Of a stretch of 64,000 nucleotides of DNA, positions 8,696-38,133 are shown piece by piece. Below the pieces are notes generated by a model that was not told the DNA's origin, did no database searches, and saw only the letters and a list, made by a program, of their open reading frames with translations. The translations under genes and the position numbers were made by a program. This stretch comes from an uncultured Macellibacteroides sp. (GTDB lineage: Bacteria > Bacteroidota > Bacteroidia > Bacteroidales > Tannerellaceae), in assembly GCF_963667135.1 (NCBI RefSeq), contig NZ_OY762974.1, positions 1,550,001-1,614,000 on the forward strand, given 5' to 3'. The first letter of the stretch is position 1. Every line of letters begins with the position of its first letter.

Positions 8696-8761
8696 ATAAA
8701 AGGATGCACTCTTTTTCCGGAAAGGGTACATCCTTTTTTAAAAGAGGGTGCACGCTTTTCC
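8696..8761. repeat. 22-bp palindromic unit array A (3 units)
   Basis: Three 22-bp units at 8696-8717, 8718-8739 and 8740-8761. The aligned cores are GGATGCACTC, GGGTACATCC and GGGTGCACGC; each is preceded by an A-rich run and followed by TTTT. Units 1 and 2 can fold into a stem (AAAAGGATG with CATCCTTTT, one mismatch) followed by six T, so the array may also terminate the transaldolase transcript. Twelve bp separate it from the mutS -7 box. Units share GTACATCCTTTT with array C at 38046-38133. Confidence 0.75.
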
Positions 8762-8772
8762 GTAAGAAACTC

Positions 8773-8780
8773 TATCTTTG
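8773..8780 (+). promoter_or_regulatory. -7 promoter box of mutS
   Basis: TATCTTTG, 34 bp before the GTG start of mutS. The last unit of repeat array A covers the place where a -33 element would lie. Confidence 0.6.
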
Positions 8781-8814
8781 TCTTTCGCATTAGAACAATT
8801 TAAAGAGAATTACC

Positions 8815-11430
8815 GTGGCAAAGCAAGTGGTTGAAACCCCTTTGATGAAGCAATATTTAGAGATTAAAACGAAGCATCCGGATGCTATTTTACTGTTTCG
8901 GGTGGGCGACTTTTACGAAACCTTTTCGGACGACGCCATCGTTGCGGCAGAAATATTAGGCATTACACTGACCCGCCGTGCAAACGGTTCTGCACAGTTT
9001 GTTGAACTGGCAGGTTTCCCTCACCATGCCCTCGATACCTACTTACCTAAACTTGTCCGCGCCGGCAAGCGCGTGGCTATCTGCGATCAGCTTGAAGATC
9101 CGAAGATGACTAAGAAGTTGGTAAAAAGGGGAATAACCGAACTGGTTACTCCCGGGGTTTCCATTAATGATAACATACTGAATCATAAAGAAAATAACTT
9201 TCTGGCGGCCGTTCATTTCACAAAAGATTGCTGTGGGATCTCCTTTTTGGATATCTCCACGGGCGAATTCCTTACGGCCGAAGGAACCTTCGATTACGTA
9301 GACAAGCTACTTAATAACTTTTCTCCCAAGGAAGTGCTGGTGGAACGGAATAACAGGAAACGTTTTGAAGAATGTTTTGGTCCGCGCTTCTTTATTTTTG
9401 AGCTCGAAGATTGGGTATTTACCTCCGATGCTGCCAATGACAGGTTGCTGAAGCATTTCGAAACCAACAACCTGAAGGGATTCGGTGTACAGCATCTTAA
9501 GCTTGGCATTGTGGCTGCAGGAGCCATTCTTCAGTATCTGGATATTACCCAGCATACCCAAATAGCGCACATTACCTCGCTTTCCCGGATAGAAGAGGAT
9601 AGGTACGTGCGCCTGGATAAATTTACAGTGCGCAGTCTGGAACTGGTGGGTACTATGAATGACGAAGGAACCAGTCTGCTGCAAGTATTGGATAAAACGG
9701 TTTCTCCCATGGGATCGCGTATGTTGCGTCGCTGGATTGTGTTTCCGCTGAAAGACGTGAAACCTATTGAAGACCGGCAGAATGTGGTGGAATACTTTTT
9801 CCGTCACCCGGACCTGAAGCAATTGCTTGACGAACAGCTTAACCTTATAGGCGATTTGGAACGCATTATCTCTAAAGTGGCCGTTGGACGTGTGTCGCCC
9901 CGTGAAGTGATACAGCTTAAGGTAGCACTACGGGCCATCGATCCGATTAAAACAGCCTGTATGGAAAGCGATGATGATAGTCTTCGCCGGATTGGCGAAC
10001 AACTCAATGCCTGTGCGCTGATCCGCGATCGCATAGAAAAGGAGATCAATCCCGATGCACCTTCGCAGATAAATCGTGGCGGGGTAATGCGTGAAGGAGT
10101 AAACACTGAATTGGACGAACTCCGTAGCCTGGCTTATTCGGGCAAAGATTATTTACTGCGGATTCAGCAACGTGAAATAGAATTGACGGGCATATCGAGC
10201 CTTAAAATAGCATTTAATAACGTTTTTGGGTATTATATAGAGGTCCGCAACACGCACAAAGATAAAGTCCCGGCGGAATGGATACGAAAACAGACGCTTG
10301 TGAACGCCGAGCGTTATATCACCCAGGAGCTCAAAGAGTACGAAGAAAAGATTCTGGGGGCCGAAGAAAAGATCCTTTCACTGGAAACACGTCTGTTTAG
10401 CGATCTGGTGCTTTGCCTGATGGAATATATAGCACCGATTCAAGGCAATGCCAACCTGATAGGCCGGATAGACTGTCTGCTTTCCTTTGCCAAAGCGGCC
10501 GAAAGCAACCGCTATATGCGCCCGGAAGTAAATGAATCGGATGTGATCGACATTAAGGCGGGCCGCCATCCGGTTATCGAAAAGCAATTGCCATTGGGTG
10601 AATCCTATATTGCCAACGATGTGTATCTGGACGACGAACACCAGCAGGTAATCATGATTACCGGTCCCAATATGGCGGGTAAATCGGCTTTGCTCCGTCA
10701 GACCGCCCTTATTACCCTCATGGCACAGATTGGCTCCTTTGTTCCTGCCGAGAGCGCCCGTATCGGTTTGGTAGATAAGATATTTACCCGGGTTGGAGCT
10801 TCCGATAATATTTCCGTAGGCGAATCTACCTTTATGGTGGAAATGAACGAAGCATCCGATATCCTGAATAACCTTTCACCCAAAAGTCTGGTGCTGTTTG
10901 ATGAGCTGGGCCGCGGAACAAGTACGTACGATGGAATCTCTATCGCCTGGGCCATTGTGGAATACATACACGAGCACCCGAATGCCAGAGCCAAAACCCT
11001 TTTTGCCACGCACTATCATGAATTGAACGAAATGGAACACTCCTTCCACCGTATCAAAAACTACAATGTGTCGGTAAAGGAAGTAGGCAACAAGGTAATT
11101 TTCCTCCGCAAACTGGTTCCCGGAGGAAGCGAACACAGCTTTGGTATCCACGTGGCAAAGATGGCAGGTATGCCTAAAAGCATTGTAAAACGTTCCGGCG
11201 AAATCCTGAAGCAGCTCGAAACAGAGAATCGCCAGGGAGGTGTTGCCACGAAACCCGTAAAGGGAATAGCGGCCAAGGCCGAGGGTTATCAGCTTAGCTT
11301 TTTCCAGCTGGACGATCCTGTCCTTTCGCAGGTTCGCGACGAAATAAAGAATATGGATGTAAACAATCTTACACCCCTTGAGGCACTTAATAAGTTAAGT
11401 GATATCAAACGAATAATAACCGGCAAATAA
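8815..11430 (+). CDS. mutS: DNA mismatch repair ATPase MutS
   Basis: An 871-residue full-length MutS. Domain I carries the mismatch-contact motif VGDFYETF; the connector, lever and clamp follow; the ATPase has Walker [14 protein letters not shown], Walker [17 protein letters not shown] and the ATHYHEL switch motif. The C-terminus ends with a helix-turn-helix-like dimerisation segment and a short tail. It recognises mismatches and small loops and recruits MutL. The start is GTG at 8815; there is no ATG upstream in frame before the promoter, and this start gives the normal N-terminus ([18 protein letters not shown]). It is alone in its transcription unit; mutL is not nearby. Confidence 0.98.
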
Positions 11431-11585
11431 GCCGGCTGTTGTGTAGAATAGGAATAATCAGGATTTATTGTGTTAATTCCTGCTTTGTTTGTACGATTAA
11501 TTAAATGAAAGTGTTTACTTTGTCCCCCTCAAACATGTATTACGGGTGTTTTTTTAGCATTAATTCTAATTGTAAAACCAAAGAA

Positions 11586-12425
11586 ATGACTAAATTACTA
11601 AAAATCAATTTGTTTGCAATAATTGCATTGCTTACTACAGGAACTCTTTTTGCTCAAGACAAGATTTATCGTAAAAACCCTACAGACACTATTCCGTGTA
11701 AGATTGTTGAAGTAGGAGAGGAGCTGATTAAGTATTCTACGGATACCTATTCGCAAAACCTTACATTTTCGGTAGACAAAAATAATGTTTCCAGGATTGT
11801 TTTTGAGAATGGAAAAGAAATGACTTTTGCTGATTCTATGTTCGGAAAGGAGAATTACGAATCGCAACGTAAAGATGCCATAAAATTGAGTTTCCTTTCT
11901 CCTTTGATGGGGGCAACCATATTTTCTTACGAACATAGCGTGAAACCGGGTCAGTCTATGGAATTCGGACTTGGTATCATTGGCGCAGGAAGGGATGTGG
12001 ATGATGTTAATCCTTTTGGTGCAGTAGCTAAATTTGGGTATAAGTTCATAACCTCGCCCGATTGGTACGACCGCCGTAATAGGTACTCCCATATTCTTAA
12101 AGGTTCGTATGTAAAGCCCGAAGTAACCGTTTTGCATTATACGGCCGACTATTACCGCTATTCCTATAACGAAAGCCAGAATGAATTCAATGTAAGCAAG
12201 GAAAAGGCCAACACGACTATGTTCTCTTTTATGATTGTAGGTGGTAAACAATGGGTATTTAATGACCTGTTTTTGGTGGATCTGTTTGCCGGAGTCGGAT
12301 ACGGTTTCGGGCACAATCCGCGGGACGAATCCTGGCATTATGGCTTTTTGGGAGCCGACGGTTCGACACCATTAACGCTTACTGCCGGACTCAAGATAGG
12401 TTTCCTTTTAGGGAAGAAGAAGTAA
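11586..12425 (+). CDS. Secreted protein of unknown function, possible outer-membrane beta-barrel
   Basis: I start this 279-residue protein at the ATG at 11586 because translation from there begins with a clean signal peptide (LFAIIALLTTGTLFAQ); the longer frame adds 27 residues without export character. The first ~90 mature residues (DKIYRKNPTDTIPCKIVEVG, then SVDKNNVSRIVFENGKEM) match a small beta-rich region common in Bacteroidota exported proteins. The rest alternates glycine and aromatic strands (FGLGIIGAGRD, KPEVTVLHYTADYYRYSYN, FLVDLFAGVGYGFGH, LTLTAGLKIGFLLGKKK), which suggests an eight-or-so-strand barrel. No family could be assigned. It stands alone between mutS and repeat array B. 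Confidence 0.7.
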   Translation: MTKLLKINLFAIIALLTTGTLFAQDKIYRKNPTDTIPCKIVEVGEELIKYSTDTYSQNLTFSVDKNNVSRIVFENGKEMTFADSMFGKENYESQRKDAIKLSFLSPLMGATIFSYEHSVKPGQSMEFGLGIIGAGRDVDDVNPFGAVAKFGYKFITSPDWYDRRNRYSHILKGSYVKPEVTVLHYTADYYRYSYNESQNEFNVSKEKANTTMFSFMIVGGKQWVFNDLFLVDLFAGVGYGFGHNPRDESWHYGFLGADGSTPLTLTAGLKIGFLLGKKK

Positions 12426-12477
12426 TCTTTAAGCATAAATCCGGAAGGAACTAAGATTCTTTCCAGGTACTTTACTG

Positions 12478-12543
12478 CCGTGCGCCCATGGGGATAAAAA
12501 AATACCCCCATGGGCGTATTTTTTTGCCCCCATGGGCGCACGA
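12478..12543. repeat. 22-bp palindromic unit array B (3 units)
   Basis: CCATGG occurs at 12508-12513 and 12530-12535 and first at 12486-12491, so the centres are exactly 22 bp apart. The fullest unit reads ATACCCCCATGGGCGTAT. Spacers are A-runs or T-runs. Adjacent units pair (GCGCCCATGGGG with CCCCATGGGCG) and are followed by T7, so the first two could act as a terminator for the upstream gene. The design matches arrays A and C, but the core is different. Confidence 0.8.
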
Positions 12544-12555
12544 TACAAAGCTTAC

Positions 12556-12563
12556 TATCTTTG
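12556..12563 (+). promoter_or_regulatory. Orphan -7 promoter-like box next to array B
   Basis: TATCTTTG on the plus strand, 13 bp after repeat array B. Nothing credible is encoded in this direction: it points into the 3' end of the opposite-strand gene at 12658-13116. It could drive an antisense or small RNA, or be a chance match. Confidence 0.35.
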
Positions 12564-12657
12564 CCTTTAGTATAAACGAAGACGAGCCTTAGCTCAAGCA
12601 GGTTTGCGAACTAATTTCGGTTTGTTTCCGGCCATAAGCAAAGGGATTCACTTAGGA

Positions 12658-13116
12658 TTAAAAAGGATTGAGTTCGTCCAGTTTAAAAGAAACCTTGGCT
12701 CCTTTGGGAAGCTTTCTTACAATAGAGCCGTACATAAAGGTATCCGGATGCATCATATCTCCGGCTACTTTAACCATATAGGCGTAGTGTTTCTTTGCAA
12801 TACGGATAAAAGAATGCCGCATATCCTTAACCTGGCTAAAGTAGGTGCCAACGCCAAGAAGAAGACTGTATTTGGAGAAGTCAATGTCTTTAAGAAAAGA
12901 GAGCGATTCAAATTCTTCCGGACTAAACATCCATTCAAGTTCTTTTTGCGAGCGTATTACTTTTTTCTCACCCGGTTCCATATCGCCTTTGAAGTGCATG
13001 ATGGGAAGTTCCTTAACAATTACGGCATCGGATATTTCTACTTCATTCCCGGTCTTTACAATGCCTTGAAAAGGAATGAGTGATGCCAGCATGCTGAATA
13101 ATTTTATTGCATCCAT
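12658..13116 (-). CDS. Small exported protein of unknown function
   Basis: A 152-residue frame on the minus strand. It starts with a short hydrophobic N-terminus (MDAIKLFSMLASLIPFQG) that may be a weak signal peptide, then a folded-looking body: VIVKELPIMHFKG, VIRSQKELEWMFSPEEFESL, FSKYSLLLGVGTYFSQVKDM and KAKVSF-like KGAKVSFKLDELNPF. The alternation of acidic and hydrophobic residues and the lack of rare-residue clustering favour this frame over the overlapping plus-strand frame at 12604-13083, which is full of Cys/His/Phe/Asn shadows. No family was recognised; resemblance to small beta-sandwich PrcB-like or protease-inhibitor-like secreted domains is only an impression. Confidence 0.6.
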   Translation of the reverse strand: MDAIKLFSMLASLIPFQGIVKTGNEVEISDAVIVKELPIMHFKGDMEPGEKKVIRSQKELEWMFSPEEFESLSFLKDIDFSKYSLLLGVGTYFSQVKDMRHSFIRIAKKHYAYMVKVAGDMMHPDTFMYGSIVRKLPKGAKVSFKLDELNPF

Positions 13117-13313
13117 AGGGCAAAAGGTTTTTTAATGGTTTATTGTGAAAACGTCCCACAATATACTAATTTAGATGCAAAGTTGTACGCGAATGTTGCA
13201 CCGATATCGTGATTTTTTATGTTAAAAGATTTGTCTACCTTTACCCCGGAATGCTTGTAATAACAACACTTTGTTGAAGCGAAACATACTAATTTAAACA
13301 ACCTTCAGATTTT

Positions 13314-13700
13314 ATGGCTATTAAGTATCGCATGACTAAACGACCCGATAACTTGTCTACTTCCAGTGGAAAAGGTCTTTATCCCCGAATTATCCGCAAC
13401 CAGAATATGGATTCGTCCGCTTTAGCAAAAAGACTATCCAAAGGATCACCCCTTCTTAAAGGCGAGATGCTGGGCTGTATCGAGCAGATTAAATCGCAAC
13501 TTATAGAAGAATTACTGAATGGGAACAGTGTCTCCATCGATGGACTGGGAACTTTTTCCTTGTCGGCCGAAGCCAACAGGTCGGTAGACAAGCCCGAAGA
13601 AATACGGGCTGCCTCGATACACGTTAAGTCGGTCAACTTCAGAGCTGCGCCCGAACTGATGTCGCGCATGAAGGAAGCCCGTTTCGAACGGGAAGAGTAG
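13314..13700 (+). CDS. HU/HIG-family DNA-binding protein
   Basis: A 128-residue histone-like protein of the Bacteroidota HU-HIG type. The N-terminal half contains the extended arm and dimer helices (DSSALAKRLSKGSPLLKGEM, IKSQLIEELLNGNSVSIDG); LGTFSLSAE is the beta-turn region seen in HU proteins; the C-terminus carries VKSVNFRAAPELMSRMKEA. These proteins are thought to bend DNA or act in local chromatin structure. The gene converges on the propeller gene, with 8 bp between stop codons. A second HU/HIG gene is encoded at 37598-37984; the two share length and design but not close sequence. Confidence 0.85.
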   Translation: MAIKYRMTKRPDNLSTSSGKGLYPRIIRNQNMDSSALAKRLSKGSPLLKGEMLGCIEQIKSQLIEELLNGNSVSIDGLGTFSLSAEANRSVDKPEEIRAASIHVKSVNFRAAPELMSRMKEARFEREE

Positions 13701-13713
13701 GAGCAAGCCTACT
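13696..13713. terminator. Small hairpin spanning both stop codons of convergent genes
   Basis: AGTAGG pairs with CCTACT around a 6-nt loop and covers the stop codons of the HU-like gene and of the propeller gene. No T-run follows, so terminator function is doubtful. Confidence 0.3.
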
Positions 13714-14620
13714 TCAGTTTATAGCTTACAAAGGCCACCTTTTTACTGTCGGGCGACCATGAATTAACGTTTATGGTTCCTTGTCCGCCAAAAAGCTGCA
13801 CCAGCGTTTTTGGTTCGCCTCCCTGCGCCGGTATGATACGAAGTTCCACATTCTTGTTGGCAAGGTGTTCTGAGGGCTTTAAATCCCCTTTTTGATAGGC
13901 AATATAAAGCACTTGTTGTCCGTCGGGCGATATGTGAGGGAACCAGGCATTGCGGGTCTCATCGAAAGTTAGCTGTGTTTGTTCGCTTCCATCGGCTTTC
14001 ATGCGCCATACCTGCATGAGTCCGCTTCGTACCGAATTGAACCAGATGTATTGTCCGCACGGCGAATATTCAGGTCCGTCGTCCAGCCCTTCAGCCGTAG
14101 TCAACCTTACTTCTTCGCCCCCTTCGGCAGGTATTACATACACATCGTAATTCCCGTTTCGGTCGGCACAATAGGCAAGTTGCTTTCCGTCGGGCGACCA
14201 CCCGTGCAGGTAACTAGGTGCCAGCGGCGTAATTAGTCTGGGAATACCCCCTTCGATGGGTAGTGTATAGATGCGAGACCTTCCATCTTCTTTTGTACCG
14301 TGACTGATGGCAATCTGTTTCCCGTCGGCCGACAGCACATGGTCGTTGTTGCAACGGGTAGCAAATCCCGTACAGATATTCACGGGCTCACCCGGTTGAT
14401 CGGGCGCAAGCTTATACAATTTACCCCCGCTGTTATAAACAAGCCATTGCCCATCTGTAGTCCAGTTAGGAGCTTCTATCAGGTAAGGAAACTCCTTTAC
14501 AACGGTACGCGTTCCGGTTTCTACTTCCAGAATCTCCAGCATGCTGGTAACCTGCTGTTGCTGGGCACTTGCAGCACTAAGAATGAGAGAACAACCCATG
14601 GCACAAAGTATTCGTTTCAT
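13709..14620 (-). CDS. TolB-like beta-propeller (PD40/WD40-type) secreted protein
   Basis: Begins at the ATG at 14620; an in-frame TTG at 14629 gives a longer but less likely start. The signal peptide is RILCAMGCSLILSAASAQ. About six TolB/PD40 repeats follow, with the family's SPDG turn: APNWTTDGQWLVYN, NDHVLSADGKQIAIS, YLHGWSPDGKQLAY, GPEYSPCGQYIWF, FPHISPDGQQVLYI and SWSPDSKKVAFV. The blades form a closed propeller of about 303 residues, without the N-terminal TolB domain. Such proteins in Bacteroidota are usually periplasmic or surface binding proteins of unknown ligand. A -7 box lies at 14646-14653. Confidence 0.85.
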   Translation of the reverse strand: MKRILCAMGCSLILSAASAQQQQVTSMLEILEVETGTRTVVKEFPYLIEAPNWTTDGQWLVYNSGGKLYKLAPDQPGEPVNICTGFATRCNNDHVLSADGKQIAISHGTKEDGRSRIYTLPIEGGIPRLITPLAPSYLHGWSPDGKQLAYCADRNGNYDVYVIPAEGGEEVRLTTAEGLDDGPEYSPCGQYIWFNSVRSGLMQVWRMKADGSEQTQLTFDETRNAWFPHISPDGQQVLYIAYQKGDLKPSEHLANKNVELRIIPAQGGEPKTLVQLFGGQGTINVNSWSPDSKKVAFVSYKLK

Positions 14621-14645
14621 AATACACAAGAATTAAGAATGTACA

Positions 14646-14653
14646 CAAACATA
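14646..14653 (-). promoter_or_regulatory. -7 promoter box of the propeller gene
   Basis: Minus-strand TATGTTTG, a TAnnTTTG match, 26 bp upstream of the ATG at 14620. Confidence 0.5.
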
Positions 14654-14690
14654 CAAAAAAGAATGCCATACACCAGAAGCTAATGAGCAT

Positions 14691-14722
14691 AAAAAAAGGC
14701 TGCCCGAGCGACAACCTTTTTT
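14691..14722 (-). terminator. Terminator of the PiT transcript
   Basis: AAAAAAAGGCTG and CAACCTTTTTT form a stem with one mismatch around CCCGAGCGA. Read on the minus strand it ends in a T-run 15 bp after the PiT stop. Confidence 0.7.
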
Positions 14723-14737
14723 ATATTTCCTATTTAC

Positions 14738-15742
14738 TTACTTAATCCCCAAAAAATCTATCAACAGATAAATGAGCGCAGCCAGAGCGGCACTCACTGG
14801 AATGGTAAGTATCCATGCCCAAAGCAGATTAATGGTAATACCCCAGCGAACGGCTGATAGTCTTTTTACAGCGCCTACCCCCATAATAGCACCTGTAATG
14901 GTGTGAGTTGTACTCACAGGAATTTTAAGAAGTTCGGTAATGAAAAGCGTTGTTGCACCGGCAGTTTCCGCACATACTCCTTCAAGAGAAGTAACCTTCG
15001 TGATTTTGCTTCCCATTGTTTTTACAATGCGCCATCCTCCGGCCATGGTTCCCATACCGATGGCTGCGAAGCAGGTTAAAGGGACCCAGTCAGGCATCGC
15101 ATTGACTGAATCAAGTTCGCCTGCAGCGATCATTGCAGTGGCAATAATACCCATTACTTTCTGCGAGTCGTTCATTCCATGTCCGAGACTGAATAACCCG
15201 GACGAGACCAATTGCAATCGCTTGAAAGTCTTTTCTGCTTTGCGGTTATTTACGTTTTTGAACAGCCATAGTACTCCGATGGTAATGATGGAAGAAATTA
15301 TCATCCCGATAAGTGGAGCTAATACAATAAATGAAGCAATCTTAATGATGGTTGCTCCATGTATGGATTGTATTCCGGCTCCTGCGATGGCAGCTCCCGC
15401 AAATCCTCCGATAAGCGTATGCGAGGAGGAAGAAGGGATTCCAAGACGCCAGGTAAGCAGGTTCCAGCTGATTGCTGCAACAAGTCCGGAGAGAATGATT
15501 GGCAGCGTTATGTATTCACGTATTACTGTTTTAGCCACAGTATCTGCAATACCAAATTCGCCAATCACATACTTAGCAACAAAAAAGGCAAGAAAATTAA
15601 AAGCAGCTGCCCAAAGAACCGCCTGAAAGGGGGTAAGCACACGTGTTGTTACAATCGTGGCTATTGAATTGGCTGCATCATGAAATCCGTTGATAAAATC
15701 GAATATTATTCCTAATGCTATAACAATAATAAGTAGCGTCAT
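14738..15742 (-). CDS. pit: PiT-family inorganic phosphate permease
   Basis: A 334-residue membrane permease. The two PiT signature halves are DFINGFHDAANSIATIVTTR near the N-terminus and SLGHGMNDSQKVMGIIAT in the second repeat; the TTFITELLKIPVSTTHTITG segment is also typical. About ten membrane spans are visible. It symports phosphate (probably as metal phosphate) with protons or sodium. It is the second gene of a two-gene operon: the DUF47 partner is upstream, with 15 bp between. A second, larger PiT is at 55354-57597. Confidence 0.95.
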   Translation of the reverse strand: MTLLIIVIALGIIFDFINGFHDAANSIATIVTTRVLTPFQAVLWAAAFNFLAFFVAKYVIGEFGIADTVAKTVIREYITLPIILSGLVAAISWNLLTWRLGIPSSSSHTLIGGFAGAAIAGAGIQSIHGATIIKIASFIVLAPLIGMIISSIITIGVLWLFKNVNNRKAEKTFKRLQLVSSGLFSLGHGMNDSQKVMGIIATAMIAAGELDSVNAMPDWVPLTCFAAIGMGTMAGGWRIVKTMGSKITKVTSLEGVCAETAGATTLFITELLKIPVSTTHTITGAIMGVGAVKRLSAVRWGITINLLWAWILTIPVSAALAALIYLLIDFLGIK

Positions 15743-15757
15743 AATTATTCTGGATTA

Positions 15758-30588: not shown

Positions 30589-30596
30589 CAAAAGTA
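30589..30596 (-). promoter_or_regulatory. -7 promoter box of spmAB
   Basis: Minus-strand TACTTTTG, a TAnnTTTG match, about 20 bp before the start at 30569. Confidence 0.5.
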
Positions 30597-30606
30597 GTAA
30601 TTCTTC

Positions 30607-30638: not shown

Positions 30639-30666
30639 GCAGCTGTAAAAATTTATAACGTACAAT

Positions 30667-31629
30667 ATGAAGAAGATACTGGTAACATTCGATATGTTCC
30701 GAGAAGGTTTTACTGAATTGGAAAGCAAATATGAAGTAGTATTTCCCGATGGCAGAGATTTTACCTACGACGAAGTTTCGGAAATGATTTCCGATTACGA
30801 TGTGCTTTGTTCCATGTTTGACTTCCCGGTGGACAAGGCTTTGATTGATCGGGCCACCAATCTGCAACTCGTAGCTAATTATGCCGTAGGGTATAACAAT
30901 ATCGATGTAGCCTATGCTTTGTCGAAAGGCCTTACTGTAGCCAATACTCCTGATCCGGTAACAGCCCCCACCGCCAATCTTGCGTTAGGCCTTATGCTGG
31001 ATACTGCCCGCCGTATAACCGAATGCGACAGGAAGCTTCGCACAATGGGAAAAAACATGAAAGTGGGAGTGCTTGAGAATCTTGGGGTATCAATAACCGG
31101 ACAAACCTTAGGTATTATTGGGCTGGGACGCATTGGCAAAGCCCTTTGCAAAAGAGCCCGTGCTTGTGGTATGAACGTAATATACAACAACCGTCGTCCG
31201 CTGTATATTGAAGAAGAAACAAAGCTGGGTGCTTCCTTTGTTTCGATGGAAGAGCTACTGGCGCAATCCGATTTTGTATCGCTTAATCTTCCTTACAATC
31301 AGGAAACGTATCATATTATTGGCGAAGCCGAATTAAAACAAATGAAACCGTCGGCCATACTTATCAATACGGGCAGAGGACCGCTTGTTGACGAGCATGC
31401 TCTGGTAAAGGCATTGCAAGATGGCACTATACACGGAGCTGGTCTGGATGTATTCGAATTTGGAGATTACCCGCTTCCCGAATTGCTTGAACTGGACAAT
31501 GTGGTTCTTACGCCTCATATTGGAACACAAACCATGGATGCCCGAATAGCCATGGCACGCGCGGTCGCCAATAATGTAATAGGTTTTCTTGAAGGCGATC
31601 GTGCCGTTTCACGTGTAACGCGTCCATGA
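30667..31629 (+). CDS. D-isomer-specific 2-hydroxyacid dehydrogenase
   Basis: A 320-residue NAD(P)-dependent dehydrogenase, of the glyoxylate/hydroxypyruvate reductase-like group. The Rossmann motif is TLGIIGLGRIGKALCKRARA. Catalytic positions are INTGRGPLVDEHAL (Arg), the Glu in GLDVFEFGDYPLP and the His in VVLTPHIGTQT. Substrate cannot be fixed from sequence; glyoxylate, hydroxypyruvate or phosphonate-type oxoacids are all possible. Its last four bases (ATGA) contain the start of the AlkD-like gene, so the two are coupled. A parS-like 16-mer lies inside its 3' coding end at 31605-31620. Confidence 0.9.
   Translation: MKKILVTFDMFREGFTELESKYEVVFPDGRDFTYDEVSEMISDYDVLCSMFDFPVDKALIDRATNLQLVANYAVGYNNIDVAYALSKGLTVANTPDPVTAPTANLALGLMLDTARRITECDRKLRTMGKNMKVGVLENLGVSITGQTLGIIGLGRIGKALCKRARACGMNVIYNNRRPLYIEEETKLGASFVSMEELLAQSDFVSLNLPYNQETYHIIGEAELKQMKPSAILINTGRGPLVDEHALVKALQDGTIHGAGLDVFEFGDYPLPELLELDNVVLTPHIGTQTMDARIAMARAVANNVIGFLEGDRAVSRVTRP
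31605..31620. other. Weak parS-like 16-mer inside a coding end
   Basis: CGTTTCACGTGTAACG matches TGTTTCACGTGAAACA at 13 of 16 positions. It is about 4.7 kb from the stronger site at 26898. It could be a secondary ParB site or chance. Confidence 0.3.
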
Positions 31630-32342
31630 CAGCCTCTTTTATTCTGCAGGAACTCCTATCAGTAGCCAATCCGGAGAAGGCTATGTTTCTGCAGGGATTT
31701 TTTAAAACCGGAAAGGGTCAATATGCCGAAGGCGATGTTTTTCTCGGCTTGGTGGTTCCTCATACCCGGAGTATTGCCAAAGCCAACAAGCAAACTCCTC
31801 TTTCCGAACTGGAAATTCTGATTCAAAGCGAGTATCATGAAGCTCGTCTTTGCGCTTTGCTTATACTTGTCGAGCAATTTAAGAAGGCTTCCGAATCCGA
31901 AAGAGCTGACATATATACTTTCTATCTGAATCATACCAGCCAGATTAATAACTGGGATTTAGTAGACATTAGCTGTCCGTACATAGTGGGAAGTTCCCTG
32001 CTCGGCAAAGATCGTTCCCGTCTTTACGAATTGGCAGAAAGCAATCACCTTTGGTCTCAACGTATCGCCGTTGTTTCAACCATAGCATTTATTCGTAAAG
32101 GAGAATTTATGGATACCTTCGCACTTGCCGAAAAATTGTTGATTCATGAACACGATCTTATGCATAAAGCCGTAGGATGGATGCTGCGCGAAGTAGGGAA
32201 GAAAGACCGGGCCTCTCTTACCGATTTTCTTGAACGCAACGCCAGCCGGATGCCCCGTACGGCATTAAGATATGCCATCGAGCATTATCCGGAAGCAGAA
32301 AGAAAAGCGTTTTTATCCGTGAAGCAAATCAAAAACAAGTGA
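31626..32342 (+). CDS. AlkD-family DNA alkylation repair glycosylase (HEAT-like)
   Basis: A 238-residue HEAT-repeat-like protein of the DNA alkylation repair (AlkD/AlkC) superfamily. It removes positively charged alkylated bases without flipping them. The signature is INNWDLVDISCPYIVG, which holds the Trp/Asp pair that contacts DNA in characterised AlkD, and LWSQRIAVVSTIAFIRKG, which holds a second conserved Trp/Arg. KAVGWMLREVGKKD is another family block. It starts at an ATG that overlaps the dehydrogenase stop by 4 bp, an odd partner for a metabolic enzyme. Confidence 0.88.
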   Translation: MTASFILQELLSVANPEKAMFLQGFFKTGKGQYAEGDVFLGLVVPHTRSIAKANKQTPLSELEILIQSEYHEARLCALLILVEQFKKASESERADIYTFYLNHTSQINNWDLVDISCPYIVGSSLLGKDRSRLYELAESNHLWSQRIAVVSTIAFIRKGEFMDTFALAEKLLIHEHDLMHKAVGWMLREVGKKDRASLTDFLERNASRMPRTALRYAIEHYPEAERKAFLSVKQIKNK

Positions 32343-32645
32343 TATTCCTGCCAGGAAACGCCCTAATGGTGAAGGATGTGAAGCCTTTTTTCGCAAACAA
32401 TGTGAGAGAATCCCTTAAAAGCATATACTTTTTGCCTCGAAAGATATATCCTTCGTCCTTCAATCTTATAAGGAAAAAGAGTAATCTATTATTACCAGAT
32501 ACCTATCAACAATGGCTCGTTTTATAAGTTGTTAAAAGACTATTATTATAAACTACAGCAATATTAATAAAATATTTATTTATATCGCTTCTTTAATAAT
32601 AAATAATTTATAAATTTGTGACTTCTAATTATAAAACAAGGTATT
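32343..32645. other. 303-bp AT-rich non-coding region before the MFS cassette
   Basis: No supported gene. A 62-codon frame starting with a non-ATG codon overlaps the end of the AlkD-like gene and shows no family character. The last 100 bp are very AT-rich and carry a promoter box at 32611-32618. No terminator hairpin for the AlkD operon was recognised. Confidence 0.55.
32611..32618 (+). promoter_or_regulatory. -7 promoter box of the MFS-YhcH-creatininase cassette
   Basis: TAAATTTG, 27 bp before the ATG at 32646, in an AT-rich leader. Confidence 0.55.
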
Positions 32646-33887
32646 ATGAAAAACAAAAACATTTATCCATGGCTTGTAGTTGCGATGCTTTGGGGCGTTG
32701 CACTGCTAAATTACATGGATAGACAAATGTTATCTACAATGAAATCTGCCATGCAGATCGATATCGTGGAATTGGAATCAGCCACAAACTTTGGTCGATT
32801 GATGGCCGTGTTCCTTTGGATCTACGGATTAATGAGTCCGATTTCGGGAATCATTGCTGATCGCATGAATCGAAAATGGTTAATTGTGGGAAGCTTGTTC
32901 GTATGGTCTGCGGTTACTTCGCTCATGGGCGAGGCCGAAACATTCCATCAGATTTACTGGCTGAGAGCTCTTATGGGGGTAAGCGAAGCACTCTATATTC
33001 CAGCCGGACTCTCTTTGATAGCAGACTATCATACCGGAAAATCACGTTCCCTGGCGGTTGGTATTCATATGACCGGCTTATATACAGGACAAGCCATCGG
33101 AGGATTTGGCGCAACAGTTGCTGCCGCCTTCACCTGGAATACTACATTTCACTGGTTTGGTATCATTGGTATTGTATACGCCTTACTGTTAATGTTTTTT
33201 CTGAAGGATAAGAAAAGTTCTTTTGCCGAACATCCAAAAGGATCGGCTACGGTACCCAAGGAGAAAAAATCATTGTTCAAAGGTCTGGGCATACTGTTTA
33301 GCAACCTCTCTTTCTGGATTATCTTACTTTACTTTGCCGCACCAAGTTTACCGGGATGGGCTACCAAGAACTGGTTACCAACGCTCTTTGCCGATAGTTT
33401 GAATATTCCAATGTCTCAGGCAGGGCCTATAGCTACCATCACCATTGCCTTATCATCCTTTATTGGGGTAATAGCAGGAGGTATCCTTTCCGACAAATGG
33501 GTACAAAAGAATATACGTGGACGCGTTTACACCGGAGCCATTGGATTAGGAATGACTATCCCTTCGCTGCTTTTGTTAGGGTATGGAAGCGGATTGATAA
33601 GCGTAGTAGGAGCCGCCCTCTGCTTCGGGATTGGCTACGGTCTGTTCGATGCCAACAATATGCCTATTCTTTGTCAGTTTGTATCGTCCAAGAACCGGGC
33701 AACTGCCTATGGCGTGATGAATATGGTTGGCGTGTTTGCCGGCGCATTTATTACTGATTTGCTGGGCAGATGGGCAGACGGAGGCAACCTGGGTGCCGGA
33801 TTTGCCATGCTGGCCGGTATTGTCTTCATTGCTTTGGCCGCTCAGTTGTTTTTTTTGCGCCCAAAGACCGACAATATGTTGGAATAG
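32646..33887 (+). CDS. MFS transporter (anion:cation symporter-like, sugar acid type)
   Basis: A 413-residue, 12-span major facilitator. The loop 2-3 motif is GIIADRMNRKWLIVGS, and the N-terminal LLNYMDRQMLSTM (a -NYxDR- type) is typical of the ACS/ExuT-GudP-NanT group of organic-anion carriers. Further on, GLYTGQAIGGFGATV and GGILSDKWVQKNIRGR match the family. The substrate is not known. It is the first gene of a cassette with a YhcH-like protein and a creatininase-family hydrolase, suggesting uptake of an acidic sugar or lactam-type compound. A 33-bp gap precedes the next gene. Confidence 0.85.
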   Translation: MKNKNIYPWLVVAMLWGVALLNYMDRQMLSTMKSAMQIDIVELESATNFGRLMAVFLWIYGLMSPISGIIADRMNRKWLIVGSLFVWSAVTSLMGEAETFHQIYWLRALMGVSEALYIPAGLSLIADYHTGKSRSLAVGIHMTGLYTGQAIGGFGATVAAAFTWNTTFHWFGIIGIVYALLLMFFLKDKKSSFAEHPKGSATVPKEKKSLFKGLGILFSNLSFWIILLYFAAPSLPGWATKNWLPTLFADSLNIPMSQAGPIATITIALSSFIGVIAGGILSDKWVQKNIRGRVYTGAIGLGMTIPSLLLLGYGSGLISVVGAALCFGIGYGLFDANNMPILCQFVSSKNRATAYGVMNMVGVFAGAFITDLLGRWADGGNLGAGFAMLAGIVFIALAAQLFFLRPKTDNMLE

Positions 33888-33920
33888 CTTAGCATGTAAC
33901 TTTTAATCATAGCAACAAAA

Positions 33921-34367
33921 ATGATTGTATCCAATTTATCAAACAGCAGTAGGGTGGAAGGACTTCACCCGCTGTTTAAAACGCTTTTCGATTACGTAAA
34001 AGGCAACGATCTTCTCCATGCAGAGTTCGGACGTATTGTGCTTGATGGCGACAACCTGTTTATAAACAATGTGAATCCGGAGTGCGTACCAGCCGAAAAG
34101 CAGGTGCTTGAAGTACACCACGACTATATCGACGTGCACATCCTGCTTGAAGGAGCCGAAACCATTGGATGGAAAGTTATAGAAGATGTAAAAGAGGAAG
34201 TAAAGCCTTATGAAAAAGAAGGCGATTGCGCACTTTATTCAGATAAACCAAGTACATTTGTACATCTTCAGCCTGGAGAATTTATGATTGTGTATCCGGA
34301 AGACCCTCATGCTCCTGTAATTGGAGACGGAAAAATACGCAAGCTGATCGCCAAGGTGAAGCTATGA
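33921..34367 (+). CDS. YhcH/YjgK/YiaL-family protein (sugar anomerase-like)
   Basis: A 148-residue cupin-like protein. The family pattern is seen in VLEVHHDYIDVHILLEGAET, the metal/sugar site (E-x-H-x3-D-x-H), and in FVHLQPGEFMIVYPEDPHAP, which holds the second conserved His/Asp set. Homologue NanQ acts on the anomers of sialic acid, and relatives are in sugar acid operons. This protein lacks a signal peptide, so it is cytoplasmic. Position between an MFS carrier and a creatininase-family hydrolase suggests a three-gene catabolic cassette. Confidence 0.88.
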   Translation: MIVSNLSNSSRVEGLHPLFKTLFDYVKGNDLLHAEFGRIVLDGDNLFINNVNPECVPAEKQVLEVHHDYIDVHILLEGAETIGWKVIEDVKEEVKPYEKEGDCALYSDKPSTFVHLQPGEFMIVYPEDPHAPVIGDGKIRKLIAKVKL

Positions 34368-34383
34368 AATAAACTTGTTAATT

Positions 34384-35142
34384 ATGAATAAAGAAATTGA
34401 TTTGTCCGTATCTTGCTACGGTAAAGTAAAAGATCTTTCTTATGATGTGGCTATTCTTCCCTGGGGAGCTACCGAGCCACACAATTATCATTTGCCTTAT
34501 CTTACCGACTGTATTTTGTCTCACGACACATCCGTTGATGCAGCCGAAAAGGCGTTTCGTGAGTCTGGTGTACGATGCATGGTGCTTCCACCGGTTACCT
34601 ACGGTTCTCAGAACCCCGGCCAGAGGGATTATCCCTTTTGTCTGCACGCGCGTTACGAAACACAGCGGGCTATTTTGGGCGATGTGGTTGCCGCTTTGCA
34701 TTTGCAGGGTATTCGGAAAATGATTATCGTAAACGGACACGGCGGAAACAGTTTCAAGAATATGATTCGTGATTTGTCTGTCGACTACCCCGACTTCCTT
34801 ATTGCCTGCACCAACTGGTATGGCATAGTTCCTCAGCAAGGTTATTTCGAAAATAAAGATGACCATGCCGGTGAGCAGGAAACCTCCGTTATGATGTATT
34901 ATCACCCCGAGCTTGTAAATCTGGAAGAGGCAGGAGAAGGAACATCCAAACCGTTTGCCTTATCTTCATTGAACGAACAAGTGGCCTGGGTTCCCCGTTA
35001 CTGGAGTAAAGTTTCGGCAGATACCGGTATTGGAGATCCCCGTAAATCATCGGCCGAAAAGGGAGAACGTTATGCAAAAGCCGTTGTGGAAAAGCTGGCG
35101 CTTCTGTTTACCGAAATAGGAAGTAAAGAGGTTTATCTCTAG
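34384..35142 (+). CDS. Creatininase-family metal-dependent amidohydrolase
   Basis: Starts at the ATG at 34384; a TTG-initiated extension of three residues has less support. The ~252-residue protein has the creatininase metal-site pattern: PWGATEPHNYHLPYLTD (Glu and His ligands, catalytic Asp) and IVNGHGGNSFKNM (the conserved NGHGGN). ENKDDHAGEQETSVMMY supplies the later His/Glu. Members hydrolyse cyclic amides (creatinine), lactams or related compounds such as 3-dehydro-scyllo-inosose lactones or formylamides. In this context creatinine itself is unlikely; a sugar-derived lactone or lactam is an inference. 16 bp after the YhcH-like gene. Confidence 0.9.
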   Translation: MNKEIDLSVSCYGKVKDLSYDVAILPWGATEPHNYHLPYLTDCILSHDTSVDAAEKAFRESGVRCMVLPPVTYGSQNPGQRDYPFCLHARYETQRAILGDVVAALHLQGIRKMIIVNGHGGNSFKNMIRDLSVDYPDFLIACTNWYGIVPQQGYFENKDDHAGEQETSVMMYYHPELVNLEEAGEGTSKPFALSSLNEQVAWVPRYWSKVSADTGIGDPRKSSAEKGERYAKAVVEKLALLFTEIGSKEVYL

Positions 35143-35163
35143 ATTCACTCACTAAAAAATTAT

Positions 35164-35211
35164 AACGGCTCCCGGCATAATCTTGTAAAGATTGCCGGGA
35201 GCCGTTTCTTT
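35164..35211. terminator. Bidirectional terminator between the creatininase gene and GH3
   Basis: A perfect 14-bp stem, AACGGCTCCCGGCA with TGCCGGGAGCCGTT, followed on the plus strand by TCTTTT and on the minus strand by an AT-rich run. It separates convergent genes. Confidence 0.92.
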
Positions 35212-35233
35212 TATACCTACTTTGATAAAGCTA

Positions 35234-37438
35234 TTACTTAACCTGAATGGTTACCTTTTGCTTGATGTCCTGCGCTGAAGTAGCAAGGCTGAGGATAAAC
35301 TCGCCCGGTTCTACAACAAACTTGCTATCGGCTTCGCTCCAGAAAGCAAAACTGCTGACAGGAACTTTAAGGGTAATCTCTTTGGTCTCTCCCGGGTTAA
35401 GGAATACCTTTTCGAATGCTTTCAGTTCCTTGGCAGGGCGCATCACCGAGCATACAGGGTCGCTTACGTAAAGCTGAGCTACTTCGGCTCCTTTGCGTGC
35501 TCCGGTGTTTTTCAGGGTAAAGCTTACCTGGACGGAATCGTTGGCAGCGTATTCGTTTTTATCCGTATTCATTTTACCGAATTCGAAGGATGTATAGGAT
35601 AATCCGTATCCGAAAGGATATACTACGGGCAGCTTCTTTGTATCGAACCAGCGGTAACCTACCAGAATATCTTCGTCGTAACGAACTACCAGGTCGTGAC
35701 CAGGGAAGTTGTTGTATGCGTGGGCGGGCGACTGATCCAAGGATACCGGAACAGAGAAAGGCATCTTACCTGTAGGAGTTTCCTTTCCTGTAAGTACGTC
35801 GGTGATGGCATTTCCGGCTTCCATGCCGTTAAACCATCCCCAAACTATCGCAGGAGCGCAGATGTCGATCGCGGCCATATCCACCGGCGAACCGGCTATA
35901 ATTACCACGATAGTGCGTGGATTTACCTTGCAAACTTCCTGAATTAGCTGTACCTGTCCGTAGGGAAGGGCATATCCCTGCTTGTCGGACGATTCGGTAT
36001 CATAGTCATGATTCAATCCGGCGTAGATAATAGCCACATCCGACTTACGAGCTGTTTCTACAGCTTCCTTAAGAACGGCTTCGTCCAATTCGCCTCCTCC
36101 TTTAAAGTTTCCGGGATTCTGTCCGTTGTTAGAGCCTTCTACAAACGTAGAGAGCTTTTCGTATCCTTGTGCGTAGTTAATTTTTAGCTTGTCGCCCAGC
36201 TTATTTTGCAATCCCTGTAGCGGTGTAATTTCGTACAGCGCCTTGATTTCCGAGCTTAATCCTCCGTTGGCATGCAAGCGGGTGGCATTATCTCCCAAAA
36301 CAGCGATGGATTGAATCTTATCTACATCCAGCGGAAGCAGGTTATTTTCATTCTTAAGCAGAACAATGGATTCCACGGCCGACTGATAGGCGGCTTGCTG
36401 ATGTTCCGGCGTATTCATGCTTCCTTTGTTGAAGCGCTTTTTAGGATCCAGCACCTTGGTCTGAATCATTACACGCAATACATTGGCCACCTTCTCGTCC
36501 ACAATACTTTCGGGAACGGCCCCACTCTTAACAGCCGCAATCAACGGATCGGCAAAAAACCACTGGTTGTAATCGTCCACCGTGGTTCCCATCTCCAGAT
36601 CGAGACCAGCCAAAGCAGCCTTTACTGTACTGTGAGAGCCACCCCAGTCGGTCATTGTTACCCCTTTGAATCCCATCTCTTCACGGAGCAGCGTACGGTT
36701 TACGTATGTATTCTCCGAACACCAGTCACCTCTGAACTTGTTATAGGCATTCATAATCGTGTAGCTGCCACCTTCTTCGATAGCCGCTTTAAAGGCGGGA
36801 AGATAAATTTCGCGAAGCGCACGTTCGCTCATCAGCACATCTACCGTGGTACGGTTTGTCTCCTGGTTATTGGCCAGGTAATGCTTTACACTGGCTGCCA
36901 CATCGCGCGACTGCAGTCCTTGAATATACGGCACAGCAAGACGGGCGTTTAAGAACGGGTCTTCGCTCATGTATTCGAAATTCCGGCCACCAAGCGGACT
37001 GCGGATAATATTAACACCCGGTCCCAAAAGTACATCCTTCTTACGAAAACGAGCTTCTTCTCCCAAAACTTCACCACGCAGGCGAGCCAGATCGGGATTC
37101 CAGGCAGCAGCAAAAGCCGTACCCGTCGGGAAATAAGTAGCCGAGTCGGTCGTCCAGTTGGAATAGCCCCAGTCGTGACGGTTAATTTCGGCACGAACAC
37201 CGTGAGGACCGTCCGAAAGACTCCATTCAGGAATGCCCAACCGGGCTACTCCCGATACAAAAAACTTGGAATTTCCGTGCAGCAAGCCGGTCTTTTCCTT
37301 TAATGTCATCTTGCTGATGAGTTTCTGAATACGCTTTTCCATCTGCGGATTTTCTTTGTTGATTTTTTGCCCCTGTATGCCGCCGTGAAGCATAATAAAT
37401 GCGGCCAGGAGAGCCATTGTCACTTTTAATCTTTTCAT
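35234..37438 (-). CDS. GH3 family beta-glycosidase, secreted
   Basis: A 734-residue GH3 enzyme with signal peptide (LLAAFIMLHGGIQGQ) and no lipobox, so periplasmic. The barrel domain carries LSDGPHGVR and ASVKHYLANNQETNR, and the nucleophile is Asp264 in GVTMTDWGGSHS. The second domain starts at ESIVLLKNENNLLPL; the C-terminal Fn3-like domain holds EVAQLYVSDPVCSVMRPAKELKAF. The N-terminal order and the GPHGVR/HDWGY residues match the GH3 subgroup that includes cellobiose/gentiobiose and steroidal glucosidases, different from the GH3 at 5603-7843. It is not in the PUL. A promoter box lies at 37481-37488. It faces the MFS cassette, but cooperation is only inferred. Confidence 0.92.
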   Translation of the reverse strand: MKRLKVTMALLAAFIMLHGGIQGQKINKENPQMEKRIQKLISKMTLKEKTGLLHGNSKFFVSGVARLGIPEWSLSDGPHGVRAEINRHDWGYSNWTTDSATYFPTGTAFAAAWNPDLARLRGEVLGEEARFRKKDVLLGPGVNIIRSPLGGRNFEYMSEDPFLNARLAVPYIQGLQSRDVAASVKHYLANNQETNRTTVDVLMSERALREIYLPAFKAAIEEGGSYTIMNAYNKFRGDWCSENTYVNRTLLREEMGFKGVTMTDWGGSHSTVKAALAGLDLEMGTTVDDYNQWFFADPLIAAVKSGAVPESIVDEKVANVLRVMIQTKVLDPKKRFNKGSMNTPEHQQAAYQSAVESIVLLKNENNLLPLDVDKIQSIAVLGDNATRLHANGGLSSEIKALYEITPLQGLQNKLGDKLKINYAQGYEKLSTFVEGSNNGQNPGNFKGGGELDEAVLKEAVETARKSDVAIIYAGLNHDYDTESSDKQGYALPYGQVQLIQEVCKVNPRTIVVIIAGSPVDMAAIDICAPAIVWGWFNGMEAGNAITDVLTGKETPTGKMPFSVPVSLDQSPAHAYNNFPGHDLVVRYDEDILVGYRWFDTKKLPVVYPFGYGLSYTSFEFGKMNTDKNEYAANDSVQVSFTLKNTGARKGAEVAQLYVSDPVCSVMRPAKELKAFEKVFLNPGETKEITLKVPVSSFAFWSEADSKFVVEPGEFILSLATSAQDIKQKVTIQVK

Positions 37439-37480
37439 ACTCTCTATGTGTTTTTACTCTTACTATTGGTATTCTGCACA

Positions 37481-37488
37481 CAAATGTA
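37481..37488 (-). promoter_or_regulatory. -7 promoter box of the second GH3 gene
   Basis: Minus-strand TACATTTG, 43 bp upstream of the GH3 start. Confidence 0.5.
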
Positions 37489-37597
37489 ATAGATAGACAA
37501 ATCCGCAGGATGTTATTTTGTAATAAACGAAGCACCATGTCCCTCATTGTTTACAAAACAACCCCCTGACAACCTTTTTGAGGCTGACCGACAAAGA

Positions 37598-37984
37598 CTA
37601 TTTACCTGCTTTTGTAAAGGTGGCCTTCCGCAAACGCTCCTTAATTCGGGTAGAAGGGAGGTAGTTGATACTTTTTACGGTTACATAGTTGGCGCGAAGT
37701 TCTTCGGGCTTTTCTACAGTAGGACTGGTAAGGGTAATACCGAAAGTGCCCATGTCGCCTATGTGCACCTGGTTTCCTTCTTCCAGCGACGATTCCAGTT
37801 CGCAAACAAGGGCTTCGATTACCCCTTTTACATCGGCTGTCGAAAGCGTTGTTTTGTCGGCAATAGCCCGGCAAAGCTCATCGGTATGTATTGTTTTTCC
37901 ATTGGCTTTGGTGGCCATAAATCCTACTTTCTCTTTTCCCGGGTAGTTACTTACCATCCGGCGCGATTTGTATGAAATGCTCAT
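37598..37984 (-). CDS. HU/HIG-family DNA-binding protein
   Basis: A 128-residue HU-like protein. ELCRAIADKTTLSTADVKGV and IEALVCELESSLEEGNQVHIGD form the dimer helices, and MGTFGITLTSPTVEKPEEL is the beta-arm region; the C-terminus is basic (STRIKERLRKATFTKAGK). This frame is preferred over the plus-strand frame at 37547-37975, which shows no family pattern. It is divergent from ruvB, and repeat array C lies in the upstream intergenic region, downstream of its own promoter box. Confidence 0.85.
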   Translation of the reverse strand: MSISYKSRRMVSNYPGKEKVGFMATKANGKTIHTDELCRAIADKTTLSTADVKGVIEALVCELESSLEEGNQVHIGDMGTFGITLTSPTVEKPEELRANYVTVKSINYLPSTRIKERLRKATFTKAGK

Positions 37985-38045
37985 TCTATATTGATTTAAA
38001 GTTTACATGTAACCGTCTTTTTCTGTAAAACAGAGGATATATATT

Positions 38046-38133
38046 AAAAAGGATGTACATGCTTTTGTATTTACATGTACATCCTTTTCGAAAAGCATGT
38101 ACATGGTTTTTAATTTACATGTACATGCTTTTA
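38046..38133. repeat. 22-bp palindromic unit array C (4 units)
   Basis: Four units of 22 bp at 38046-38067, 38068-38089, 38090-38111 and 38112-38133. Each has TGTACA in the centre (centres at 38056.5, 38078.5, 38100.5 and 38122.5), flanked by G or C and then A/T runs; a unit reads AAAAGCATGTACATGGTTTT. It lies between the divergent starts of an HU-like gene and ruvB, so it cannot be a simple terminator of an upstream gene. It would be transcribed in the HU leader if the box at 38148-38155 is real. Confidence 0.85.

Follow-up and report, generated by a model that had tools for sequence, protein, structure and literature searches.

Phased 22-bp palindromic arrays lie in the leaders of long HU-HIG genes in a Macellibacteroides genome and are probable clusters of protein-binding sites

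What are the rows of 22-bp palindromes that stand between genes in a Bacteroidales chromosome? The question is raised by a 64,000-nucleotide stretch from an uncultured Macellibacteroides sp. (hereafter the window), which corresponds to positions 1,550,001–1,614,000 of a single-contig source genome of 4,461,457 bases. An original prediction made from this DNA had grouped three of its intergenic arrays, A (8696–8761), B (12478–12543) and C (38046–38133), into one family of phased palindromes. Here, we find that such arrays occupy the leaders of long HU-HIG genes, and we consider it likely, with a probability of about two in three, that they are clusters of three to five binding sites for the expanded HU-HIG proteins, comprising private operators and dispersed copies. 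As far as our searches show, the arrays are undescribed in the literature searched.

Period-22 arrays in the source genome

The test named beforehand was a genome-wide period search with shuffled sequence as a control. We sampled 79 evenly spaced 20-kb stretches of the source genome together with the window (1.644 Mb), and scored three consecutive phased palindromes for each period from 18 to 33 at thresholds of 32/34/36/38. Period 22 gave 32/30/21/9 three-unit loci, compared with at most 3/1/0/0 for each other period and at most 1/0/0/0 in first-order shuffles, i.e. period 22 far exceeded both other periods and shuffled sequence. A simpler score found seven loci at period 22, two at 33, one at 41 and none at the remaining periods from 17 to 44. 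In 200 kb of Escherichia coli K-12, used as a further control, period 22 had no locus and period 24 had one. A chance origin was rejected by the period spectrum, the shuffles and the E. coli control. The period-22 arrays are real and more extensive than had been claimed: at least 10 unrelated cores have the period in common, and 61 arrays from the source genome and its relatives form 20 core clusters at 12/14 identity.

The 32 arrays of the sample all lie between genes, in DNA of which open reading frames (ORFs) cover 86.6%. Among 43 arrays catalogued in the source genome, 23 have three units, 18 have four and two have five, some array ends being clipped by the counting rule used. In typed gaps of at least 150 bp (28 arrays), 15 arrays were codirectional, seven divergent and six convergent, where gap length predicts 16.3, 7.6 and 4.1. 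As the gap types follow gap length, there is no terminator preference, and intrinsic terminators were rejected as an explanation because divergent gaps hold their predicted share (7/28). The period had also been taken to place every palindrome on one face of the helix. With a DNA helical repeat of 10.5 bp per turn, 22 bp makes 2.1 turns; therefore, a common face is only approximate.

Leader arrays of HU-HIG genes

An all-against-all comparison of the ORFs within 2.5 kb of arrays identified HU-HIG proteins as the cluster present at most loci (six, all in the source genome). In this family (PF18291) an HU domain is fused to a winged helix-turn-helix, an immunoglobulin-like or a glycine-rich part, and by Pfam score the partner proteins belong to it. 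A Pfam scan of 69 of the 81 flanking ORFs had pointed to no striking family (two HU-HIG and three sigma-70 matches). In the complete source genome PF18291 has 20 matches, all above the gathering cut-off of 26.2 (whole-protein score), although the two weakest may be ordinary HU proteins, given that 9 of 14 control genomes have PF18291 matches too.

Each of the six HU-HIG genes inside the sample has an array within ∼1 kb, two of these six lying in the pre-selected window. At the remaining 14 HU-HIG loci, five reached a score of at least 32 in the fetched 1.5-kb flanks, compared with 2 of 37 control loci (42 at first, seven with an array; five were dropped because they overlap family-C loci, described below, that had been fetched by array matches). 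A sensitive score, which calls an array clear when the period is best or joint best and exceeds the highest of 15 shuffles by more than 4, found a clear period-22 leader array at 8 of these 14 loci. By this score, clear arrays precede 10 of the 11 long HU-HIG genes (197–221 amino acids) in the source genome, just upstream of the start codon, as well as the 128-amino-acid gene beside array C. The eleventh long gene (L260) has an insertion sequence (IS) end at the array place, and none of the other eight PF18291 matches has a clear leader array. Our strongest claim is that phased leader arrays go with long HU-HIG genes.

Array C is itself a leader array. Its four units on ATGTACAT (38046–38067, 38068–38089, 38090–38111 and 38112–38133; unstranded) lie within the leader of a minus-strand HU-HIG gene (37598–37984, L266; 100.7 bits), whose start codon is 61 bp from the array. 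On the same strand, TACATTTG (38148–38155), a TAnnTTTG-type −7 box, starts 22 bp before the array.

Near-identical paralogues share an array type (L264 with L265, and L258 with L262), and most divergent paralogues differ in it, i.e. they have private cores; L263, which is 38% identical to L265, shares the CACAC array type with it. Binding of a dimeric protein such as HU had been listed among the candidate roles, and it is now the best supported of them, as arrays stand in HU-HIG leaders with a core of their own in each. Two 143-amino-acid HU-HIG genes (L269 and L271) have a GATATATC array ∼0.5 kb upstream, not in the leader.

Independent loci and register with the −7-type box

A tblastn search with one HU-HIG protein matched 14 records of a plasmid collection and three of a phage collection. 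The plasmid-collection records may be chromosomal pieces, since they are large and called non-mobilizable. One locus was fetched from each of 10 of the 17 records (H1–H8, H15 and H16; H9–H14 and H17 were left out). These loci were thus chosen by protein similarity alone, and the 330 bp before each gene was scored by the same rule. Clear period 22 was present in 8 of the 10, with different cores: 1/1 in Parabacteroides distasonis, 3/4 in Bacteroides finegoldii, 2/3 in Phocaeicola massiliensis and 2/2 in phage-like contigs (one weaker). Nothing was found in the 330-bp leader of one B. finegoldii locus. A locus of the relative G009 (L250) was not counted as independent because it had been found via the array pattern.

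The leaders also carry TAnnTTT(G/A), which we take to be the Bacteroidetes −7 motif. In all 11 array leaders of the source genome such a box starts 22–24 bp upstream of the first unit, with unit borders set by eye and a second box in three leaders. In the eight independent loci one box lies 0–1 bp modulo 11 from the first unit centre, and a half-period shift is expected because a palindrome array has a dyad every 11 bp; two of these loci (L281 and L284) have further boxes off that register. No TAnnTTT(G/A) box was found at L250. Inward −7 boxes were rejected as a general array feature, being present at 5/86 array ends compared with 25/514 background trials (outward boxes, 12/86). Family-B arrays had at first seemed to be framed by inward boxes, an impression that failed under the strict motif.

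A modelled winged helix and nearest known systems

An AlphaFold2 model of the 206-amino-acid L263 protein (mean predicted local distance difference test score 83, predicted template modelling score 0.51) has an HU part followed by a helix-helix-helix-strand-strand C-terminus. The best Foldseek match was a putative DNA-binding protein of Bacteroides vulgatus (E 9.5e-4); weak matches (E 0.004–0.05) were to HU proteins, AspA, and IclR-, ArsR- and MarR-type winged-helix proteins. A sequence search with the HU-HIG protein returned HU and IHF chains. The long HU-HIG form is thus modelled as an HU fold followed by a winged helix. No DNA target of the HU-HIG family was found in the literature searched. 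The Bacteroidetes HU-HIG expansion is reportedly predicted to act against mobile elements, a prediction that our literature search did not retrieve.

Two systems offer partial parallels. The 22-bp iterons of plasmids are iteron/operator clusters with about two-turn spacing, and the arrays would resemble them as direct arrays of protein sites at about two turns beside the gene of the binding protein. Unlike iterons, the arrays have palindromic units, occupy dozens of intergenic loci and differ in sequence from paralogue to paralogue. AspA forms rows of dimers that spread along palindromic DNA. This centromere-binding protein of plasmid pNOB8 (5k5q and 5k5o) is alike in its winged-helix fold, by a weak fold match (E 0.006–0.04), but it has no HU domain and belongs to a partition system, not to a system of intergenic repeats.

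Families, dispersed copies and flanking modules

BLAST searches of the source genome found six further loci related to array C (family C, seven in all) and nine related to array B (family B, ten in all), and no relative of array A below E 0.06. Array units are mosaics. In family C a constant ATGTACAT core is joined to four main arm types, and in family B CCCATGGG is joined to inner arms, with mostly CGTGCG-like arms at the array ends. End arms and internal arms differ in family B by eye and in family C at p 0.056 (p 0.025 for TCATCGG), on hand counts. In three cases (L154, L110 and L194, the last from a metagenome-assembled genome, MAG), one array joins units of two core families in the same 22-bp register.

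Palindromicity peaks near the unit centre and reaches background ∼10 bp out. Family B has mirror pairing in addition: arm pairing is 1.00 in several copies, and the arms of array B are 91% complementary. Over the 61 arrays, whole-array mirror symmetry was 0.72 compared with 0.69 in a unit-shuffled control (40/61 above). A whole-array hairpin was therefore rejected as a universal constraint, since symmetry barely exceeded this control.

Are the leader arrays copied elsewhere? In 19 of the 43 catalogued arrays a unit matches one of the 11 leader arrays at 15 or more of 18 bases, compared with 1/43 for shuffled units. Leaving out the three that are themselves leader arrays (L154, L160 and array C), 16 of 40 match. 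All seven family-C arrays (window, L132 and L006–L010) match the leader of the window HU-HIG gene, as expected because one member is that leader. The best leader matches of arrays A and B (13/18 and 11/18) are at the control level.

Some loci have a longer flanking module in common. This module M (∼170 bp, with GTGACAGATG direct and inverted repeats and hairpins) starts at the HU-HIG stop codon in L258, L260, L262 and L263, and lies 104–161 bp from arrays at six gene-less loci; the gene-less arrays recorded with it are those of L104, L105, L107, L112, L118 (by eye), L164 and L168. It was not found at most HU-HIG loci. Because the module starts at HU-HIG stop codons and adjoins gene-less arrays, it suggests putative cassettes of array, HU-HIG gene and M, together with gene-less derivatives. 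The module-M hairpins of L104 and L107 differ by one compensatory pair, and L143 and L092 have an analogous module of other sequence (AAAGTGAAGGCT). A Cobalamin riboswitch (Rfam RF00174) at L143:15481–15688 is not related to the arrays.

IS66-type and DDE_Tnp_1-type elements are repeatedly found between array and M or beside arrays, as though the array cassettes were hot spots of insertion; IS elements at array loci are L087:10773–15688, L110:11282–13819, L083:1823–4363, L107:993–2624 and the L260 leader, the arrays at L083 and L260 being inferred. An array stands directly upstream of a 5.7-kb multi-copy segment (L124:1529–1617, L115 and L123), 99% identical and with few ORFs over 100 amino acids, which is presumably an rRNA operon.

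Arrays in related genomes

Arrays are present in several genera among the Bacteroidales genomes examined. We found three period-22 arrays in 160 kb of the same-genus genome G001 (one from a stretch picked for its family-B match), four in 100 kb of G009 and three in 100 kb of G012, mostly with other cores than in the source genome, and none in 62 kb of G019 or 100 kb of G025. Each of 18 genomes searched from this bacterial family has 1 to 25 HU-HIG matches; there are 20, 17, 16 and 7 in the source genome, G001, G009 and G012, where arrays were seen, and 3 and 1 in G019 and G025, where they were not. Pairs of CACAGCTG at spacings 17–27 matched in 5 of 295 Bacteroidales genomes. Exact 22-bp pairs occurred in the source genome, in G009 (two places) and in G047, which belongs to another family, and those loci hold arrays (two in the 2.2-kb locus of G047); pairs at spacings 17 and 18 lie at loci without arrays. 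A reversed-pattern control also gave matches, four in G009 and one each in G284 and G313.

The closest comparison was with the MAG (G040, Parabacteroides sp. isolate Gw_SlPrim_bin_25), which is ∼96–98% identical over the locus-sized pieces compared. Its loci fetched by the family-B pattern also hold period-22 arrays. Thirteen array loci were in the same places in this 97%-identical genome, although loci were fetched by array similarity and array-less places would have escaped. Across 13 array comparisons, changed sites numbered 1/344 in cores, 18/516 in arms and 10/86 in spacers, compared with 142/2600 in 100-bp flanks (core versus flank, p 4e-7). Within units, 11 pairings were broken and eight gained, and the 28 array substitutions include a single compensatory pair, in whole-array pairing. 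The original prediction inferred selection on symmetry and phasing; the core is nearly frozen, but symmetry alone is too simple, as pairing was broken about as often as gained.

G001 is more distant (74–82% nucleotide identity around arrays A and B). It retains array A at mutS in the orthologous place, as well as one family-B array, the only family-B match in that genome, with its arms replaced on both sides. Family C has no match in G001. Array C and its HU-HIG gene are jointly absent, the window's 37566–38193 being represented by ∼66 bp (G001:C3). In the other direction, the G001 arrays L164 and L168 are absent, by eye, from the corresponding places of the source genome. As an observation on phasing, G009 locus group L171–L174 has 20-bp arrays (10-bp unit CATAAGAACT/CATAGGAACT) and 21-bp arrays (AAAAGGCCGGCAGCCTTTTGG).

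Proposed private operators and the case against them

How might one protein family use these arrays? We propose that every 22 bp would present one palindromic site, likely for one protein dimer. The HU fold of a long HU-HIG protein would dimerise and bend DNA, and its winged helix could read the sequence. The protein's own gene carries a private array right after the −7 box, in helical register with it, and a row of dimers on the leader would allow the protein to switch off or tune its own promoter. Dispersed intergenic copies would recruit the same protein, and some may be leftovers of cassettes without the gene. Paralogue-specific winged helices on a common HU scaffold could account for free sequence with fixed geometry. 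We infer physical binding, autoregulation, a role of the winged helix in specificity and any effect of the dispersed copies. If this is correct, each leader array predicts where its paralogue binds, which makes the question of HU-HIG targets directly testable, and the dispersed copies are a candidate regulon. The arrays would then be a kind of intergenic repeat with conserved geometry and free sequence, tied to a DNA-bending protein and not to a transposase.

A broader picture is tentative, and we would bet against it as a whole: Bacteroidales might possess a set of HU-winged-helix proteins that are each addressed by a 22-bp array of their own, and the gene-array cassettes might multiply, diverge and leave solo arrays. 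A dozen or more orthogonal nucleoprotein systems might thus silence or bundle loci and perhaps respond to foreign DNA, with the 22-bp unit as the footprint of one dimer.

Several observations weigh against private operators. The association with HU-HIG genes was found post hoc, through the comparison of neighbours, and tested afterwards. The first palindrome score gave the leader arrays of L257, L258 and L262 less than 28; these arrays were recognised by eye, and the sensitive score bore them out later. More than half of the catalogued arrays (24/43, including all ten of family B and array A) match none of the 11 leaders. The gene beside array C is a short form that stops before the C-terminal extension of the long paralogues; because of this, the specificity for array C would sit in the HU part or in another paralogue. 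For arrays A and B no partner was identified and the operator role would apply by analogy only, so their role is our weakest claim. Geometry is not uniform either: the Ph. massiliensis locus L277 has a leader array with a period of 21 in place of 22, the long HU-HIG locus L280 has no array in its leader by the sensitive score, and G009 has three loci at period 20, two at 21, three at 30 and one each at 19 and 28. Since G009 holds period-20, -21 and -30 arrays beside period-22 ones, other phasings exist in the family. At the 2.2-kb G047 locus no HU-HIG gene was seen, by eye, among ORFs of at least 90 amino acids. The mirror symmetry of family B exceeds what separate dimer sites need. Finally, period 22 also fits an RNA leader, and the leader arrays would be transcribed if the box is a promoter.

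Alternative explanations

This last point leads to a role as RNA, i.e. attenuators or stability elements with alternative hairpins in the HU-HIG leaders, and bidirectional terminators or 3′ structures elsewhere. We regard it as rather unlikely, but the attenuator that had been listed among the candidate roles keeps some weight because a −7-type box precedes the leader arrays, which are able to fold. The folding of arrays B and C is far better than that of shuffled sequence (z −7.8 to −11.5; −8.8 for array B as plus-strand RNA). On the other hand, hairpins do not need exact 22-bp spacing, and the palindrome centre of families B and C, which would form the loop if one unit folded by itself, is frozen between the source genome and the MAG. 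Where the gap is codirectional, 12/15 arrays lie closer to the 3′ end of the gene before the gap (p 0.035), which has to be set against the absence of a terminator preference, as gap types are in proportion to gap length. The G001 family-B array with new arms still pairs across the array by eye, but compensatory change is limited to the one pair among 28 substitutions noted above. Arrays of ten loci matched no Rfam family at the gathering score (five searched at E up to 5, five at gathering). Membership of a known RNA family was rejected, the best sub-threshold matches being mostly eukaryotic microRNA precursors, i.e. those that any long hairpin would give. Alternatively, array, HU-HIG gene and module M may move together as a mobile cassette, with array-M pairs as derivatives like miniature inverted-repeat transposable elements (MITEs), solo arrays as scars, and a period set by the mobility complex and not by gene regulation. 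As a sole explanation we consider this improbable, but cassette mobility is compatible with private operators and both can hold. The positions of module M at stop codons and near gene-less arrays speak for it, as do the joint absence of array C and its gene from G001, the single orthologous family-B match and missing family C there, and the G001 arrays without counterparts in the source genome. However, module M stands beside a minority of arrays, the arrays have no transposase or recombinase linked to them, the nearby IS66 and DDE_Tnp_1 elements look like separate insertions, no target-site duplication was seen in family B by eye, and no parent element was found. Furthermore, 12 loci (6/10 of family B and 6/7 of family C) are in the same places in the MAG, with loci fetched by array similarity, and a cassette leaves the register with the −7-type box unexplained.

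The 'REP/MITE-like mobile repeat' first suggested finds partial support in lineage-specific dispersed families and in the longer flanking modules that some arrays have in common, yet there is no Y1/RAYT-type transposase and the 13 MAG loci compared are in the same places. Classical repetitive extragenic palindromic (REP) elements, or the bacterial interspersed mosaic elements (BIMEs) built of them, moved by a REP-associated tyrosine (RAYT, Y1) transposase, are very improbable here. REPs are dispersed, extragenic and palindromic and form species-specific families (PMC2817692), as the arrays do (32/32 intergenic in the sample). Mosaic copies, and the tie of each family to a gene that has that family's repeat next to it, are further likenesses. 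The Y1 transposase family PF01797 has no match in the complete source genome, compared with matches in 5 of 14 control genomes, for which reason RAYT/REP membership was rejected. Moreover, no GTAG or CGTC tag is constant from family to family, although CGTC stands at many ends in the CACAC family, and the arrays are set apart by fixed 22-bp phasing across unrelated cores, an HU-winged-helix partner and no sign of current movement. The BrickBuilt MITE of Porphyromonas gingivalis, of the same order, also consists of intergenic tandem repeats of similar unit length, with predicted long stem-loops and reported promoter activity. It is one sequence family with 23-nt units in 1 to 22.8 copies, leader and tail segments and IS5-type ends (PMC4596501), unlike the many sequence families, 22-bp period and three to five palindromic units found here, where no such ends were seen. 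An equally remote explanation is chance or neutral minisatellites made by slippage and the repair of hairpins. Template switching can generate tandem palindromes, and G009 does have other periods; slippage, however, would yield many periods where 22 stands alone in the source genome, and the tight copy number and conserved cores argue against it.

Window arrays and their neighbours

All three window arrays were found by direct inspection where they had been placed, with three, three and four units, every unit being 22 bp, and GTACATCCTTTT is common to arrays A and C as had been claimed. Carriage of the window's own arrays by phages or plasmids was rejected, as array C had no match in plasmids, array B had none in phages, and the three-core patterns of both had none in IMG/VR. 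Array C is followed divergently by ruvB (38232–39257, plus strand). Array B (unstranded) has three units on CCCATGGG with outer arms CGTGCG/CGCACG. Its setting had been called convergent, which turns on whether the minus-strand ORF 12658–13116 or the overlapping plus-strand ORF 12604–13083 is the true gene; no Pfam match was found for either. At a distance of ∼0.8 kb from array B lies the second window HU-HIG gene (13314–13700, plus strand, L268; 128 amino acids, 93.2 bits), whose own leader has no convincing array. Array A (8696–8717, 8718–8739 and 8740–8761; unstranded), the weakest palindrome set of the three, occupies the gap between a transaldolase-family gene and its downstream neighbour mutS (8815–11430, plus strand). 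The region upstream of mutS has period-22 arrays of unrelated sequence in three lineages (L203 in G030, L215 in G034 and array A in the window).

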